64,000 bases of DNA from Balneola sp. (GTDB lineage: Bacteria; Bacteroidota; Rhodothermia; Balneolales; Balneolaceae), in NCBI GenBank assembly GCA_002720745.1, contig PBJO01000007.1:323564-387563 (forward strand), read 5' to 3'. Made by a program: the position numbers and the translations under genes. Shown in pieces: positions 19,635 to 56,772 of the stretch. The notes beneath the pieces were generated by a model, which was not told where the DNA came from, searched no databases, and saw nothing but the letters and a program-made list of their open reading frames with translations. Numbering within the stretch: position 1 is the stretch's first letter; each line of letters starts with the position of its first letter.

Positions 19635-20450
19635 TTAATTAGTGGTAGCTACCAGTTCTAACTTTTTTATCTCACTAACTGCTTGTAAATAATGGAATTC
19701 TGCTTCTGGACGAAGTATACTTTGCGGAAATAATTGTAAGAATTTTTCGTAATTCTCAACAGCTAAGTTATACCGTTCCAATTGTTTGGATTGTATGCTT
19801 TGCTCAGCATAACTGACATAAGTCTCTATGATTTTTAACAGAGCAGATTCTGCCCATTGTGTTTCAGGGTATATATCTAAAGTCTGATCGAAATAGATAG
19901 CTGCAGCTTTGTATCGAAGAGTTCGCAGATAAAATTGACCTGATTCATATGTTTTACGAGCGAGTTTATTTCTTAGTTGATCGATTTTTTGAGCACTTTC
20001 TTCGATGAAGGTTGAATTTGGATAACTATTATTGAACAATTGAAACAGTTCAATAGCTCGCATTGTTGGCCCTTGATCTAAGCGGTAGCGAGGAGATTGC
20101 TGATAATAACTCAGCGCCCTATAGAACTCAACCTCTTCTCGGCGTTCATCTTGTGGATAATAGCTAATAAAGCGTTCATACTCTGAAGCAGCTAGTAAGT
20201 ATTGCTTATTTTTGAAATAACTTTCAGCTAATAAGAATTGTGCTTGCTTTGCATAGGTAGTTCCTCTACCCATTCTAGTAACCAAATCAAATCCAGATGC
20301 GGCGTCGGAATATTCTTCTCTTTCATAGAAAGCAATTGATTTTTCAAACGCTGAATCAAGAGGTTCACCTGGTTTGATTAGCTCTTTATTCGAACATGAA
20401 AGTGTTATACTTAGCAGTAGTAATAACGCAAGACGTAATAGCATAATCAT
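19635..20450 (-). CDS. bamD: Outer-membrane assembly lipoprotein BamD
   Basis: 271 residues. The signal peptide ends in ITLSC, making C19 the lipidated cysteine. TPR-like helical repeats cover about residues 28-250 (GTTYAKQAQFLLAESYF, QYLLAASEYERFISYYP, the family hallmark). BamD is a periplasmic lipoprotein that works with BamA to insert beta-barrel proteins. It starts within the last 4 bases of the polyprenyl synthetase gene. Confidence 0.93.
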   Translation of the reverse strand: MIMLLRLALLLLLSITLSCSNKELIKPGEPLDSAFEKSIAFYEREEYSDAASGFDLVTRMGRGTTYAKQAQFLLAESYFKNKQYLLAASEYERFISYYPQDERREEVEFYRALSYYQQSPRYRLDQGPTMRAIELFQLFNNSYPNSTFIEESAQKIDQLRNKLARKTYESGQFYLRTLRYKAAAIYFDQTLDIYPETQWAESALLKIIETYVSYAEQSIQSKQLERYNLAVENYEKFLQLFPQSILRPEAEFHYLQAVSEIKKLELVATTN

Positions 20451-21430
20451 TTTTTCCGGGACATTAAATAGTCTATGAGTTGATGGAGTTCACCACGGTA
20501 ATAAGAGTGTTCAAACCCTCCTATAATATCATAAATCTGTGCATATTTATTGTTGATAAGATCAGATATTTCATTAATGACCTTGTACTTATACATGAGC
20601 TCAATAACCGATGCTACCCATCCATCATTTAGTTGCGCCTTGGAACCGGTATAGGCTAAATCCATTAGAATTTGTTCTTTGGTGTTGCATTGCTCATAAG
20701 TACGAATCCATAAGTATGTTTTTTTTCCTTCTAGAATGTCTCCAGCTTTCTTTTTCCCAAAGTTTTCAGGTTCAGCTGTGACGTCCAAAAGATCATCTTG
20801 CATCTGAAAGGCAACCCCCATTAATAGACCAAGTTCTTGCATATTAGATAAGAGATCTAGTCTTCCACCTACAATTGCACCTAATCCAAGTGCAGCGGAC
20901 AGTAAAGCGCCCGTTTTACCTTCAATCATCCTAAAGTATTGATGAACTTGCACTTTTTTTCGTTGCATCAACTCCATATCTAAAGCTTGACCATCGCATA
21001 CTTTGATGGTCGCTTGAACAAATATATCCATCAATGCATGAAAGGCTTTTGTACCAATATATTCATTCTTTCCATAGTATACTAGCTGTTGAAACGCATA
21101 TACATACATTACATCACCACTTAAAATAGCCATATTTGAATCCCATTTCTTGTGTACGCATGCAAAGCCTCTTCTGGTATTAGCCTGGTCCATTATATCA
21201 TCATGGACTAATGTAAAATTATGTAGGATTTCTATGGCAAGAGCTGCTTGTATGGCATTTTTATGCCGCCCAGATGCAATTCCAGAAGCTAAAAGAGTCA
21301 AGTAGGGACGAATTCTCTTCCCTCCCATGTCCATTGTGTATCGAAATGGATCATACAAAGTGTTTGGTTCTCTAGGTAGCTCTAAATGCTGAATAGCCTT
21401 TTCAATTTCTTCTAACCAATACTTATTCAT
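20447..21430 (-). CDS. Polyprenyl (geranylgeranyl/farnesyl-type) diphosphate synthase
   Basis: 327 residues with both aspartate-rich motifs: the first in LVHDDIMDQANTRRG, the second in QMQDDLLDVT. GGKRIRP lies at the N terminus and FGKKKAGDILEGKKT follows the second motif. It condenses isopentenyl diphosphate onto allylic primers; product length is not readable with certainty. The type 2 isomerase gene lies directly upstream, overlapping by 4 bases, giving a compact isoprenoid unit that can feed carotenoid and quinone synthesis. Confidence 0.94.
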   Translation of the reverse strand: MNKYWLEEIEKAIQHLELPREPNTLYDPFRYTMDMGGKRIRPYLTLLASGIASGRHKNAIQAALAIEILHNFTLVHDDIMDQANTRRGFACVHKKWDSNMAILSGDVMYVYAFQQLVYYGKNEYIGTKAFHALMDIFVQATIKVCDGQALDMELMQRKKVQVHQYFRMIEGKTGALLSAALGLGAIVGGRLDLLSNMQELGLLMGVAFQMQDDLLDVTAEPENFGKKKAGDILEGKKTYLWIRTYEQCNTKEQILMDLAYTGSKAQLNDGWVASVIELMYKYKVINEISDLINNKYAQIYDIIGGFEHSYYRGELHQLIDYLMSRKK

Positions 21431-22500
21431 AAAGACATGAGTATTATATGTTCTTCACTTAAGAGGCTCCATTCGTGAACTCCGAGCAATGTCATAACCA
21501 TTTTTGCTTCTTTACGCCATAAAGAAAACCATTTTTCCAATCCGTCTATACCTTCTTCTTTCAACACTCGAACAATAGGCTGGGCAACAGCTACAAAATG
21601 AGCCCCTAAACATCGGGCTTTTATCATATCCTGAGCATTTCGGATTCCCCCAGATGCAATAATTTCAAATTTACGTTCCCATACTAGTTCTTGTAATGAT
21701 TCTAAGCAATAAACGGTACTATTTCCCCATTCATTAAAGCGTTCATGCATTTCTTGTTCATATTGGTATGTCAAAGTATTATCCAAGTTTACATCCCATT
21801 TTGAGGGTATTCGCGCTGCCTCAACCCGAGACCATGATGTACCCCCAACTCCAGCAATATCAATTACTTTTACTCCTGCATTAAGTAATCGTTTTGCTAC
21901 TTTAGAATCAATCCCCGCACCTGTCTCTTTGACTATTATAGGAACTGAAGAGTGCTTAACCAATTGTTCAATTCCCTTGAGTATACCAGAAAATTGAACA
22001 TCTCCTTCAGGCTGAATTAACTCTTGAAGTGGATTAAGATGAACAATAATTGCATTGGCTTTGATAGAATTAATCATTGTTTTGAGACCATAAGTAGGCA
22101 TTCCTCCAATAAGTTGTGCTCCTCCAATATTCGCAGCTATGAATGCGTTTGGTGCCTTATCACGAACAATGGTAAAACTATTTTCATGGGTACTATCCTC
22201 CAGCATCGCCCGTTGACTACCCACTCCAAAAGGAATGTCGAATTTCTCACAGAAGGTAGCAATGTCTGCATTAAGGGTGGTAGCTTCTCCATGTCCTCCA
22301 GTCATAGATGATATAAATAAAGGAAAATCAAATTCACGTCCCAACAAATGTGATTTAAATGATATGTCATCAAGTCCACATTCTGGTAATGCATTATGCT
22401 TGAGTTGATACATTTCAAATCCAGTCGTTCGCTTGTACTGACTAGTTTCAGATAAAGTAAGATCTATGTGATCTTTTTTACGGGTTGAAATAGAGCTCAT
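21427..22500 (-). CDS. fni: Type 2 isopentenyl-diphosphate delta-isomerase
   Basis: 358 residues from the ATG at 22500; an in-frame non-ATG start at 22545 would add 15 atypical residues. It is an FMN-dependent TIM-barrel enzyme. RKKDHIDL opens the fold, ISSMTGGHGEATTLN binds FMN, and IDIAGVGGTSW and ASGGIRNAQDMIKA are phosphate and flavin loops. It interconverts IPP and DMAPP. The type 2 enzyme is common in Bacteroidota-related phyla. It is coupled to the prenyl synthase gene by a 4-base overlap. Confidence 0.95.
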   Translation of the reverse strand: MSSISTRKKDHIDLTLSETSQYKRTTGFEMYQLKHNALPECGLDDISFKSHLLGREFDFPLFISSMTGGHGEATTLNADIATFCEKFDIPFGVGSQRAMLEDSTHENSFTIVRDKAPNAFIAANIGGAQLIGGMPTYGLKTMINSIKANAIIVHLNPLQELIQPEGDVQFSGILKGIEQLVKHSSVPIIVKETGAGIDSKVAKRLLNAGVKVIDIAGVGGTSWSRVEAARIPSKWDVNLDNTLTYQYEQEMHERFNEWGNSTVYCLESLQELVWERKFEIIASGGIRNAQDMIKARCLGAHFVAVAQPIVRVLKEEGIDGLEKWFSLWRKEAKMVMTLLGVHEWSLLSEEHIILMSL

Positions 22501-22563
22501 ACTATAAGTTAGTAAACTTGTACAGGGATTAAAATTAAGCGACACAAAATCTCGGTATGAATC

Positions 22564-51586: not shown

Positions 51587-51631
51587 GTATCTTTGAGTAG
51601 TGTACTACTAGTTAATAAAAATAACAAACCA

Positions 51632-52664
51632 ATGAATATTCTAGTTACAGGAGGGGCAGGATATATAGGAAGTCATACCTGCTTAGAATTAATAGTTCAA
51701 GGTCACCAAGTCATTATCACAGATAATTTGTCTAATTCACGCCGATTATCCGTTGAGAGGGTTCAAAGCATCTGTCAAAAAGAGATCGTGTTTTATGAAG
51801 TTAACCTACTTAATGGAAAAGCACTAGATGACATCTTTCAAACTCATTCCATTGATGCCGTGATTCATTTTGCTGGTTATAAGACTGTGTGTGAATCCGT
51901 AGAAAAACCACTGATGTACTATCAAAATAACCTTCAATCAACATATACTTTGCGAAACCATGGAGCGCCACAAAGTTCATCATTTGGTATTTAGTTCATC
52001 AGCAACCGTCTACGGGTTAAATTCAAAAAGTCCGATACCTGAATATGCATCTCTATCTGCTACCAACCCATATGGTAGAACCAAATTATTCATTGAGGAG
52101 ATACTTCGAGATTGGTCAATAACTATACCTGAAAGCTCTATAGCATTACTGCGCTATTTCAACCCTGTGGGTGCCCATTCTTCGGACCTTATCGGTGAAG
52201 ATTCGCAAGGTATTCCAAATAATTTAATGCCCTATATAACCCAGGTGGCTGCAGGACGCAAAGAAATACTAACCATTTTTGGAAACGATTATGACACCGT
52301 TGATGGAACTGGTGTTAGAGATTACATTCACGTAATGGATTTGGCATTAGGTCATGTGAAATCCCTAGAATACATCTTAAACTCAAGAGGATGTGATGCC
52401 TTTAATTTAGGTACTGGAAAAGGAACGAGTGTACTTGAATTAGTTGAAGCATTTGAACTAGCGACTGGGCAACAAGTACCCTATCAAATTAGCAATAGAC
52501 GACCTGGGGATGTAGCTACTTGTTGTGCTAATCCCACCAAAGCAAAAAATAAACTCTCTTGGGAAGCGACTAGGGATGTTGTAGAGATGTGTAGAGATAG
52601 TTGGAACTGGCAAAGAAAGAATCCTATGGGATATCTAAGTTCCTATATTAGGCCTTGTGATTAA
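51632..52664 (+). pseudogene. galE: UDP-glucose 4-epimerase GalE, frameshifted
   Basis: The ATG at 51632 starts ILVTGGAGYIGSHTCLELI, the NAD-binding motif. The frame continues through DAVIHFAGYKTVCESVEKPLMYYQNNLQSTYTL and is lost at about 51951-51960. The second frame resumes with ETMERHKVHHLVFSSSATVYG, then NPYGRTKLFIEEIL (YxxxK) and RDYIHVMDLA, to a normal C terminus. Comparison with the usual helix length fits loss of 2 bases in TTGCGAAACC (T-L-L-E-T expected). All catalytic residues survive across the two frames. GalE interconverts UDP-glucose and UDP-galactose. No slippery run is present, so a mutation or consensus error is likelier than programmed shifting. Confidence 0.88.
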
Positions 52665-53009: not shown

Positions 53010-53699
53010 TTACTTTTTTCTCACGATAGTACAACCATCTCGAATAGGAAGTAGTAGTTGATTAACACGATTATCGCCTTTAATATGTTTATTAAAAGCA
53101 TCAAGAGTACTGGATTTAGGGTCCTTAGGTGCTAGTACTTGTGCGCCCCAAAGCACATTATCAACTAAAAGGATACCCCCACTTTTCAAAATAGGTATGC
53201 AATATTTATAGTAATGTTGATAGTATAGTTTATCTGCATCAAGATATATGAAGTCGTATACCTTGTTCAACTTGGTTATTTCTTCTCTGGCATTACCCTT
53301 AATAAGCTGGATCCTGTCATCGAATCCAAACTTATAAAAATTATTTTGAGCAATTTTTTGATATCGAATATTCATCTCAATAGTATCAATTTGTCCATAT
53401 TCAGGAATAACCTCGGCCATTTTTATGGCACTATACCCTGTAAAGGTTCCAATTTCTAAACAATTCTTAGCTCCTGTTGTTTGTACTAAGATTTGTAGCA
53501 AATGCCCCACCAATGGTCTACTTAGCATGTCAACATGTGCAAGTTCTTCATCAGAACTCTGAATCAAATTTGTAACTACTTCACTTTCAGCAGTAGAATG
53601 GTCTTCGGCATATTTTTCAACTTCACTATCGGAAATAACTCTGTATTGCTTTGGTCGATTTTTCACTAATTTTATCTTTATTTTATTATCTCCATTCAA
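53010..53699 (-). CDS. SAM-dependent O-methyltransferase (caffeoyl-CoA OMT-like)
   Basis: 229 residues. SAM-binding motif I is CLEIGTFTGYSAIKMAE, IDTIEMN follows at strand 2, and YDFIYLDADKLYY and GGILLVDNVLWGAQV complete the cation-dependent family 3 pattern; the metal ligands are likely the D residues in LDADK and the VDN. Substrate unknown. The start lies head-to-head with the acyltransferase gene, with almost no room for separate promoters. Confidence 0.92.
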   Translation of the reverse strand: MNGDNKIKIKLVKNRPKQYRVISDSEVEKYAEDHSTAESEVVTNLIQSSDEELAHVDMLSRPLVGHLLQILVQTTGAKNCLEIGTFTGYSAIKMAEVIPEYGQIDTIEMNIRYQKIAQNNFYKFGFDDRIQLIKGNAREEITKLNKVYDFIYLDADKLYYQHYYKYCIPILKSGGILLVDNVLWGAQVLAPKDPKSSTLDAFNKHIKGDNRVNQLLLPIRDGCTIVRKK

Positions 53700-53713: not shown

Positions 53714-54331
53714 GTGAACTTTATCCAAGCCAAAGAACATCCCTTATATTTGTGGTTTTTTTACTATGTAACGGCTTATTTGTTGAAGCGTCGATTCAAC
53801 AGGGTTCATATAGAAGTAGAATACTATCCCTCTAAGAACACCTCCACATTATTTTATTTGAACCATAATTATTGGTGGGATGCCCTAATGCCCAATTATC
53901 TAAACCGTCGTTTTTTTAGACAGAAGGCACGCGGAATGATGGATATTAGAGAGTTAAAAAAATATCCTTTTTTTACAAAAATTGGAGCTTTTTCAGTTGA
54001 CGTAGAACAGCCTAAAACCTCAATATACAGTCTTAAATATGCATTAAATCACCTTCAAACAGCCAATGCTTCTTTATATATATTCCCAGAAGGTGAAATT
54101 GTGCCCGTTCATTCCGGTCCTCTTCAGTTTAAACGAGGTCTGAAATGGCTACAAACCCAAGCAAGTTTTGTAGACCTTGTCCCAATTGCTATTTACATTG
54201 ATTATTCAAAGTCATCTAAGCCCAATTTACACATAAATATTGGTTCCGAGCTTCTGCCAGATGAGAATCACAGCAGATATCTAGAAAAAAAGTTGGCACT
54301 AATAAAAAATCGTCTGCATCCATCAAAATGA
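53714..54331 (+). CDS. PlsC-like acyltransferase (possible carotenoid-glycoside acyltransferase)
   Basis: About 205 residues from a GTG at 53714 (VNFIQAKEHPLYLWFFYY); a TTG at 53651 is possible but overlaps the methyltransferase gene. The catalytic HX4D motif is NHNYWWD, the substrate loop is FPEGEIVPVHSGPLQFKRG, and LVPIAIYI is block IV. PlsC-family enzymes add acyl chains to lysophospholipids; CruD of green sulfur bacteria, which acylates a carotenoid glucoside, belongs to the same superfamily. Neighbouring crtC-like and GT2 genes favour a CruD-like role, which is inference. Confidence 0.8.
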   Translation: MNFIQAKEHPLYLWFFYYVTAYLLKRRFNRVHIEVEYYPSKNTSTLFYLNHNYWWDALMPNYLNRRFFRQKARGMMDIRELKKYPFFTKIGAFSVDVEQPKTSIYSLKYALNHLQTANASLYIFPEGEIVPVHSGPLQFKRGLKWLQTQASFVDLVPIAIYIDYSKSSKPNLHINIGSELLPDENHSRYLEKKLALIKNRLHPSK

Positions 54332-54391
54332 GTCGCTCGATAAATTTTTTTTAAAATGGTGTACCATTACTAAACATAAATCCTAGAATAT

Positions 54392-55516
54392 TTACCAAGT
54401 TTTTGAATAAAGAAATCGTGATTTTTGTACCCAATGCGTTTTGGAGGACATATATCGCAGCCGCATATTAATCATCCACCAATACTTGCGGTCATAAATG
54501 CGCTTCGGCATAATATACTCCGAGATTCCTCGCTGAGTCCTCTTCGTTTGACCCGTTTTTAATGTTACCTCACTAAAATATCGCTGATAAAAGGGACCAT
54601 CATCAATTATTTGATTGGCGAGCACCTCACATTCTACCCCAGGCCCTTTCATAATGATTTTTCGAAATGCATGCAACCCTTGCCGATTGGTTACATCATT
54701 CAGTAACTCAATTTCGCGTATATTTAATTCTGTACTATTTAACTCAACAGAAAACAACCATGCATTTTTTTTCACTCCATCTTTAGTATTCATTATATAG
54801 TAAACCAAAGTGTAATCAGTGAAATGAACCCGCCCCCAATACCAATCTTCAAAACTATCTTTCAAAGGCTCAAAACCTACATTATGATCGTGATAACCTA
54901 AGCCATTTAAGGCTATGTTATACATATCAGTCCGTCCATCGAGCACTAGGTTTCCCATGACACCCGCTCTAGGCTGTATCAAATTCCAAGCATGTTGAAA
55001 TTTTGTCTGTTCTGGCGCCTTAAGTAGCGAACTAAAGTCAGCAGACTCTTGCAACTTTTTTGTATCGAGAACGAATTTAATCCTTCCAGTCAGCTGATAA
55101 CTAGAATCCAACATCTGATTCAATATAATCTCGTACTCTAATTTATCATCCAAGACTCTTCGTTCGAAAATATTACTGCCCAATGATATTGAGAATGGTT
55201 CATTTTGAGAAGTTAATCTATTGGGTGCATACTCCAAAAAACTGTAATATTCTGCTCTTTGTGCATTGTAAACTGATACACTTATAGCAGGGAATGAGCT
55301 TGCACATGCTGTTTTATCTTCGGAGTGTTTACTTGTATTATTCGTTTGATTTTGTGCTCTAATGTATGCAGGAGAAAAGGGATTTCCCTCATAAAAAATA
55401 ATAACAATTGCCCACTTTTTATCTGCAGACAATGCATCAAAATACCACCATTCATAACTACCTGGATTTTCTTTTTTATGAGGTAACTCAGATGATAGTT
55501 TAGAACGTATATACAT
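54392..55516 (-). CDS. CrtC-like carotenoid 1,2-hydratase
   Basis: 374 residues, soluble. Family blocks are visible: PGSYEWWYFDA near the N terminus, GLGYHDHNVGFEPL with the catalytic-type His/Asp residues, and DWYWGRVHFTDYTLVYYI. CrtC adds water across the terminal 1,2 double bond of an acyclic carotenoid end, giving the tertiary alcohol that can later be glycosylated. It is divergent from the GT2 gene (50 bases) and convergent with the acyltransferase gene. Some relatives act on other lipids, so the substrate is inferred. Confidence 0.8.
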   Translation of the reverse strand: MYIRSKLSSELPHKKENPGSYEWWYFDALSADKKWAIVIIFYEGNPFSPAYIRAQNQTNNTSKHSEDKTACASSFPAISVSVYNAQRAEYYSFLEYAPNRLTSQNEPFSISLGSNIFERRVLDDKLEYEIILNQMLDSSYQLTGRIKFVLDTKKLQESADFSSLLKAPEQTKFQHAWNLIQPRAGVMGNLVLDGRTDMYNIALNGLGYHDHNVGFEPLKDSFEDWYWGRVHFTDYTLVYYIMNTKDGVKKNAWLFSVELNSTELNIREIELLNDVTNRQGLHAFRKIIMKGPGVECEVLANQIIDDGPFYQRYFSEVTLKTGQTKRTQRGISEYIMPKRIYDRKYWWMINMRLRYMSSKTHWVQKSRFLYSKTW

Positions 55517-55566
55517 CTTAGGTTGGTACTGTAGGTGGTTTATTTAAGAGTTCGTTAACTTCCCCT

Positions 55567-56772
55567 ATGGAAATAACATTATCCCTTTTAATTATAGTGC
55601 TAATGAGCTTTGCGCTGCTCTTTCACTTAGGCACAACACTCAATTATTTACGAAACCGTAAACATATACGCTGCATTCCACAATTTGGAAAAGATATCAA
55701 TAATCCCAACAATAATTATATTACCGATTTAAGTGTTTGTATTCCATGCCGAAATGAAGAACATAATCTCAGAAAAACGCTGAAATCTTTGGTCAATCAA
55801 ACAAAGAAAAATATCTCTATACTAATATTGAATGACCAATCAACCGACGGAACACAATCAATTCTGGATGAATATAGTACTAAATATTCGCACATTAGAG
55901 TGATTCAAGGAAAGGAAAAGCCCGAAGATTGGTTGGGTAAGAACTGGGCCTGTCATCAGCTATCTGAACAAGTGACCACCAAATTCATGGTTTTTCAGGA
56001 TGCGGATGTCTGGTTATGTCCCTATGCGTTAGATACTATCACCAATTTATTACATTCTTATGATGCATTAACTGTCTGGCCCCATCAAAAGTTATATACT
56101 TTTTTTGAGCGATTGATTGTCCCTAGTGTGTATTATTCTTTTTTTACTTTATTTCCTGCTGCCTATTTACATCGTAAACCAAGATGGCTGCCTACATTCT
56201 TATATGGACGGGTCAAAGAATTATTCACTGCTGCAAATGGACAGTTTATGGCTTTCAATATGTCAACGTATTGCAGCATAGGGGGACATTATAATGTTCG
56301 GAATGAGGTAGTGGAGGATATGGCTTTAGCGCGTCTGATAAAAAAATCCCCTCATTCAATGGGAATGTTTCATGGCAAAAACACTATTTTTTGCAGGATG
56401 TATCGATCTGGAAAAGAGGTATGGGACGGTTTTGGCAAGAATTTTTTACAGGGTTTTCCCAATACGTTTACTTTTATATTTCTAGGTTTGCTACATCTAA
56501 TCGTTTTCATTTTCCCTGTAACTGTACCATTTATTATTTACGGATTTGGGCGTGCTACCCTCTATGAGCTAACCATAATTTATGTTTTAATTTCAATAAT
56601 TGTGCTTCTATTTACTCTTCAACGATTGTCACTAGATAGTTTATTCGATTGGAAGCGAAGTTATTCATTCCTCCATATTTTTTCTGTGATTTGGTTTCAA
56701 GCACTTGCAATTCGTTTAATTTGGAATAAATTGAGCGGTAGGAAAGTCAAATGGAAAGGACGATCAATTTGA
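55567..56772 (+). CDS. GT2 membrane glycosyltransferase (CruC-like)
   Basis: 401 residues with an N-terminal membrane helix (about 3-25), a GT-A domain (LSVCIPCRNEEHNLRKTLKSL, NDQSTDGT, a DxD-like QDADVWL, and EDMALARLI as the acceptor-base block) and C-terminal membrane helices (about 295-370). This layout matches the CruC / 4,4'-diaponeurosporenoate glycosyltransferase group that attaches sugars to carotenoids at the membrane. The crtC-like and acyltransferase neighbours support that reading. Confidence 0.83.
   Translation: MEITLSLLIIVLMSFALLFHLGTTLNYLRNRKHIRCIPQFGKDINNPNNNYITDLSVCIPCRNEEHNLRKTLKSLVNQTKKNISILILNDQSTDGTQSILDEYSTKYSHIRVIQGKEKPEDWLGKNWACHQLSEQVTTKFMVFQDADVWLCPYALDTITNLLHSYDALTVWPHQKLYTFFERLIVPSVYYSFFTLFPAAYLHRKPRWLPTFLYGRVKELFTAANGQFMAFNMSTYCSIGGHYNVRNEVVEDMALARLIKKSPHSMGMFHGKNTIFCRMYRSGKEVWDGFGKNFLQGFPNTFTFIFLGLLHLIVFIFPVTVPFIIYGFGRATLYELTIIYVLISIIVLLFTLQRLSLDSLFDWKRSYSFLHIFSVIWFQALAIRLIWNKLSGRKVKWKGRSI

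Follow-up and report, generated by a model that had tools for sequence, protein, structure and literature searches.

Three adjoining genes in a Balneola genome very likely act on one end of a carotenoid, adding first water, then a sugar and then a fatty acid, as judged from sequence comparison and a structural model. They lie in the window, the 64,000-nucleotide stretch of DNA analyzed here (G000:C10:323564-387563), which comes from a 2.17 Mb genome of 25 contigs that is 98.63% complete. The sequence-only reading of this DNA had proposed a carotenoid glycosyl-ester module at this site, and the proposal is supported by the gene content, the conserved residues, the modelled fold, the gene neighbourhood and an exchange, in two relatives, of the hydratase CrtC for the hydratase CruF. 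This natural swap is the strongest evidence for our reading of the trio and the least expected part of the result.

The three-gene locus

The acyltransferase, CrtC-like and membrane glycosyltransferase (GT2) genes are all present and adjoin as the sequence-only reading had placed them (Table 1). The acyltransferase and CrtC-like genes converge, the CrtC-like and GT2 genes diverge, and the trio is flanked by an O-methyltransferase gene and xerC. The mechanical open reading frame of the acyltransferase starts at 53651; a GTG at 53714 agrees with the homologues and with the start given in the sequence-only reading, and the stop is at 54331. The earlier observation that fni and a polyprenyl synthase gene lie within the same window also holds. 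The best NCBIfam models for the polyprenyl synthase, IdsA (256 bits) and GGPP synthase (230 bits), both score below their cut-offs, and this enzyme is a possible supplier of GGPP.

Table 1. Features of the trio locus and of isoprenoid supply in the window (window positions).
Feature	Position	Strand	Evidence
CruD-like acyltransferase (LPLAT/PlsC superfamily), predicted sugar acylation	53714..54331	+	PF01553, motifs, crt run of G002
CrtC-type carotenoid 1,2-hydratase (predicted)	54392..55516	-	Invariant residues and modelled fold
Intergenic gap of 50 bases between the divergent CrtC and GT2 starts; presumed shared promoter region	55517..55566	.	Coordinates; divergent layout in 67/79 loci
CruC-like membrane glycosyltransferase (GT2; predicted)	55567..56772	+	PF00535; sole strong match in own genome; beside cruF in G002
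Polyprenyl diphosphate synthase, outside the trio	20447..21430	-	PF00348, 228 bits
fni, type 2 isopentenyl-diphosphate isomerase, outside the trio	21427..22545	-	TIGR02151, 356.5 bits (cut-off 281.3)

The O-methyltransferase (PF01596; window 53010-53699, minus strand) is divergent from the acyltransferase. At the named loci described below the two are mostly gained or lost together, so the O-methyltransferase may share the pathway of its neighbour. A galE gene is broken over two frames (window 51593-51994 and 51960-52664, plus strand), the N half scoring 126 bits and the C half 284 bits against TIGR01179. In a genome of the same genus galE is one unbroken frame (L083:10682-11698), and the split here is either a sequencing error or a pseudogene.

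A probable remote CrtC-type hydratase

The CrtC-like protein scores 37.1 bits against the NCBIfam model of proteobacterial CrtC, NF045922, short of the cut-off of 400, and 28.3 bits against Pfam DA_N (cut-off 27), a Diels-Alderase family that is the Pfam call for all 51 CrtC-like members. The NF045922 cut-off was passed by none of 394 genomes of the phylum; Balneolales sequences reached up to 72 bits, and those of f27, a family whose genomes we take to be Chlorobiaceae, up to 42 bits among the matches listed. These scores indicate that NF045922 covers only the proteobacterial branch, and a hydratase such as this one, at 37 bits, escapes the standard models.

In Rubrivivax CrtC, replacing His239, Trp241, Tyr266 or Asp268 by alanine abolishes activity, according to PMC4717167, and a section of PMC12402844 describes W110, W283, W285 and D268 as critical too, with W283 and W285 as carbocation-stabilising tryptophans. 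The catalytic H, W, Y and D of Rubrivivax map to H175, W177, Y208 and D210 of the window protein, and the equivalents of W283 and W285 are W225 and W227. The spacings HxW, YxD, D+15 and D+17 are identical in the two proteins, the gap from W to Y is 31 here versus 25 in Rubrivivax, and W23 and W24 are candidates for the counterpart of W110. All six residues from H175 to W227 are invariant in a 51-row alignment made of the window protein and 50 of the 79 named loci. They are also kept in every row of a wider set of 20, of which 16 rows come from other families.

The AlphaFold2 model of the protein (pLDDT 91.6, pTM 0.92) has the two-beta-barrel fold of the CrtC family. Among solved structures it most resembles fungal Diels-Alderases (Z 26-27), and AttH (2ich; Z 21.7, rmsd 4.0, 286 aligned), kievitone hydratase (Z 20.5) and 25-phosphosteroid lyase (Z 19) also matched. 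After this AttH-type group the next unrelated row fell to Z 6.8, and no CrtC structure was among the fold matches listed. On residues and model together, we assign the protein as a remote CrtC with a predicted CrtC/AttH-type fold, and our confidence that it would catalyse the carotenoid hydratase step is very high.

The glycosyltransferase and the acyltransferase

The GT2 scores 84.8 bits against PF00535. It reaches the cut-off of neither NCBIfam HpnB (TIGR03469; 112.6 bits, cut-off 379) nor CruG (NF045692; 88.5 bits, cut-off 600). It is the only strong member of its type in its own genome, at 574 bits with the next match at 50. Likewise, each of six f27 genomes contains one strong match (295-320 bits, the next at most 63), presumably CruC, while the GT2 matches in eight genomes of the class outside the order do not exceed 162 bits. 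In a tree of 48 rows, for which no root was inferred, the GT2s of the order, those of f27 and the other CrtC-neighbouring GT2s were split, at 100/100, from seven GT2s of the class. Because the ingroup includes a very long row from the own genome (L012) and a branch of length 3.4 that carries four weak GT2s, the tree was used only for this split. In f27 the CrtC gene adjoins Rieske and cytochrome b genes, as in Chlorobaculum tepidum, which is one reason for taking this family to be Chlorobiaceae. Membership of a carotenoid clade, on which the sequence-only reading depended, is favoured for the GT2 by its grouping with the single strong GT2 of f27 and by an enzyme of this type in the G002 crt run that includes cruF, and a CruC-like glycosyltransferase step is very probable.

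The acyltransferase scores 32.2 bits against PF01553 (cut-off 23), and its H-x4-D (NHxxWWD) and PEG motifs are invariant in 16 of 16 rows; NHxxWWD is common to the acyltransferases of the window, G001 and G002. It differs from the canonical PlsC-like protein of its own genome, which is encoded by a separate gene. The G002 crt run contains a member of the same subfamily, as does a CrtC-GT2 locus of G350. The predicted role in acylation, as a CruD-like enzyme, is likely, with somewhat less assurance than the roles of the other two proteins.

Conservation of the locus in relatives

A search with the CrtC-like alignment gave 79 named loci, labelled mostly as Balneolaceae, Balneola, Fodinibius, Gracilimonas, Rhodohalobacter or Balneolales, with some other MAG labels. 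A GT2 gene adjoins CrtC at 67 of these, always divergent, and an acyltransferase gene at 37, always convergent, frequencies that make the layout more than chance. Where the GT2 is absent beside CrtC (12/79), the available space is under 1.2 kb at five loci and at least 3.1 kb at seven; where the acyltransferase is absent (42/79), eight have less than 1.1 kb and 34 have at least 1.5 kb. The difference between the two counts suggests that CrtC and GT2 form a stable core from whose locus the acyltransferase is often missing. The 30 loci of the order search all contain the GT2, and 21 contain the acyltransferase. Outside the order, a GT2 is near CrtC in 5 of 16 CrtC loci, with the identical three-gene layout in one (L196). 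At none of the 79 named loci do crtB, crtI, crtD or crtO lie within 8 kb of the trio.

We also surveyed 116 genomes of the order. crtI is present in 115, a PF00494 match in 112, a CrtC-like gene in 105 (a count that takes in fragments and a decayed copy in G002) and CruF in 2. Neither hydratase was detected in ten genomes, eight of them less than 90% complete and the others G036 (94%) and G010 (92%). The G010 contig stops just beyond its GT2. In G036 the GT2 (L242:5931-7130) is beside xerC, the roughly 5.9 kb upstream of it contain no CrtC, and the genome gave no CruF match, which reflects either an assembly gap or a third hydratase.

Sister lineages have a more distant GT2 (L226, L222 and L227); one of these GT2s lies by a crtI-like gene, and two have an acyltransferase close by. 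In class genomes outside the order the glycosyl-ester pairing may recur as a parallel module.

Exchange of CrtC and CruF

G001 and G002 alone, of the 116 genomes, carry CruF. G001 retains the stretch of O-methyltransferase, acyltransferase and GT2 genes, in which the GT2 and acyltransferase genes share a 4-base overlap and no CrtC gene separates them; its CruF gene is elsewhere and adjoins a CrtYcd-type cyclase gene. G002 has a run on a single strand of crtI, crtB, one open reading frame, a CrtYcd-type cyclase gene, crtD, the acyltransferase gene (101 bits to A3), the GT2 gene (285 bits to A2) and cruF. A leftover CrtC homologue lies outside this run (L240:5804-6817) as an open frame of 337 codons. 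Its catalytic H, W, Y and D are replaced by N, C, C and Y, respectively, and W227 by Q. It keeps 20 of 42 invariant positions, whereas three sequences of other families keep 34, 35 and 37. It is either a dead copy or one with a new role.

Since the same types of GT2 and acyltransferase stand beside CrtC or CruF, the pair appears to work with either of two unrelated hydratases. The gene content indicates that CrtC is lost or ruined where CruF is present, a swap seen in two genomes, from which we infer the order of events. The CrtYcd-type cyclase is found in 3 of the 116 genomes (G001, G002 and G060). The G060 match (C6:330105-330602, L241) is in a genome that also has a CrtC-like gene. We give even odds to a fuller account in which the GT2-acyltransferase pair of Balneolales is a hydratase-blind cassette and CruF replaced CrtC twice in the sampled order, each time with a CrtYcd-type cyclase. 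Hydratase and cyclase would then have been swapped as a unit, after which CrtC was deleted (G001) or decayed to a dead copy (G002).

Exchange of the hydratase by a constant sugar-and-acyl pair amounts to a natural complementation experiment, which favours the proposed function for each gene of the trio. It also shows how unrelated enzymes replace one another in carotenoid pathways.

Core carotenoid genes

The sequence-only reading had pointed to the rest of the genome for crtB, crtI and cruF. Both crtB and crtI are present. The single PF00494 match of the genome is crtB, at C10:450880, and the strongest TIGR02734 match is crtI, at C7:88075 (590 bits). Two weaker TIGR02734 matches lie at C10:415796 (375 bits) and C10:527340 (136 bits). 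By NCBIfam the former is crtD-like (330 bits, below the cut-off of 500) and the latter crtO-like (364 bits, below the cut-off of 1000). Known relatives of the crtD-like desaturase act on 1-hydroxycarotenoids. The search of the genome for CruF (PF04240, Caroten_synth) gave no match, nor was a CrtYcd-type cyclase matched there. Together with a crtO-like ketolase, this desaturase points by sequence to an end product of the salinixanthin type.

Proposed pathway and alternatives

In the pathway that we propose, the trio would tailor the open (psi) end of a C40 carotenoid. Asp210 of the CrtC-type enzyme would protonate the terminal C1'=C2' bond, and water would then give a 1'-hydroxy carotenoid. The CruC-like membrane GT2 would place a sugar onto the 1'-hydroxyl, to which the CruD-like acyltransferase would esterify a fatty acid. 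We infer the substrates, sugar, acyl group and pigment. Several observations count against this reading of the trio. The scores with the curated CrtC, CruG and HpnB models are far below their cut-offs, ten order genomes gave no match to either hydratase, and the swap is seen in two genomes. At seven of the 79 loci no GT2 adjoins CrtC although 3.1 kb or more is available, and the acyltransferase is missing from 42, of which 34 have space for it. Also on this side are the lack of crtB, crtI, crtD and crtO within 8 kb of the trio and of a CrtYcd-type match in the own genome.

The GT2 and acyltransferase could instead make a glycolipid or hopanoid glycoside, with CrtC a chance neighbour. HpnB is the top NCBIfam model for the GT2, most enzymes of the acyltransferase superfamily act on phospholipids, and the acyltransferase is missing at 42 of the 79 named loci. 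The HpnB model does not discriminate, however, since the f27 GT2 scores even higher with it (187 bits) than does the window GT2. The sole squalene/phytoene-synthase match of the genome is crtB, which leaves no HpnC plus HpnD pair, and the genome has its separate, ordinary PlsC-like gene. The recurrent divergent placement of the GT2 by CrtC, and its place in the G002 crt run with cruF, also oppose a chance association. We consider this explanation improbable; as the main reading, a hopanoid or plain glycolipid product was rejected because HpnB also tops the f27 GT2 and the genome has one squalene/phytoene synthase. Less probable still is that the CrtC-like protein acts as an AttH-type lyase or pericyclase of some other kind instead of hydrating carotenoids. 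The uniform DA_N assignment and the fungal Diels-Alderases as nearest solved folds favour it, but all the residues on which carotenoid hydration is known to depend are conserved without exception, crtI is present in 115 of the 116 order genomes, and where CruF is present the CrtC residues are lost (G002) or the gene is gone (G001). A Diels-Alderase function, as the Pfam name would have it, was rejected in view of the conserved CrtC catalytic residues.

Of the alternatives, a non-acylated carotenoid glycoside, with the acyltransferase acting elsewhere, is the least improbable. In its favour, 34 of the 79 loci lack the acyltransferase beside CrtC despite having room for it. It is nevertheless unlikely: the same acyltransferase subfamily is found in the G002 crt run and at the G350 CrtC-GT2 locus, and in G001 the gene overlaps that of the GT2.

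Comparison with known systems

Formation of OH-gamma-carotene glucoside laurate by CrtC, CruC and CruD is described in part of PMC6166724, and the C. tepidum route to hydroxychlorobactene and hydroxy-gamma-carotene glucoside laurate has the same three activities in the same order. The host of the trio is not a green sulfur bacterium, unlike C. tepidum. Genomes of f27, taken as Chlorobiaceae, have one strong relative of the GT2, and their CrtC shares its catalytic residues with the window protein. The trio genes adjoin in our window, whereas no such GT2 or acyltransferase was found in the 11-12 kb stretches at four f27 CrtC loci. In the class but outside the order, GT2s score 95-162 bits and group apart from that of the trio. 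CruF, the bisanhydrobacterioruberin/carotenoid hydratase, has the same predicted step as CrtC, for which it stands in in G001 and G002, and belongs to a membrane protein family unrelated to CrtC.

In the literature searched we found no carotenoid tailoring pathway for Balneolales, and a search by C. tepidum locus tags returned no paper. Nothing on CruC or CruD function was found in the sections of PMC2889829 and PMC9560492 consulted, and a passage of the Odiel paper (PMC12942990) reports cruC, crtB and crtI in a Gemmatimonadota genome. The present analysis gives a specific, testable pathway to a bacterial order with poorly known pigments.

Rhodothermus marinus has neither a CrtC nor a CruF homologue, according to a passage of PMC5822342, which places CruD within the crt operon and CruC at a distant site. 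We considered the present CrtC branch as the missing Rhodothermus hydratase and rejected it, since in the class search 90 of 195 genomes matched, all within the order (96 order genomes were counted among the 195, six of them without a match). Among the phylum-search matches listed, no CrtC-type protein came from a same-class genome of another order. The branch was thus not seen in the sister lineages searched, and their hydratase is still to be found. Salinixanthin, of Salinibacter and Rhodothermus marinus, is of the same class as the pigment predicted here, and the crtO-like and crtD-like genes make a keto, didehydro, glycosyl-ester monocyclic product plausible. By analogy, the chemistry would be that of the already-known CrtC-CruC-CruD route, and its product is probably salinixanthin-like.
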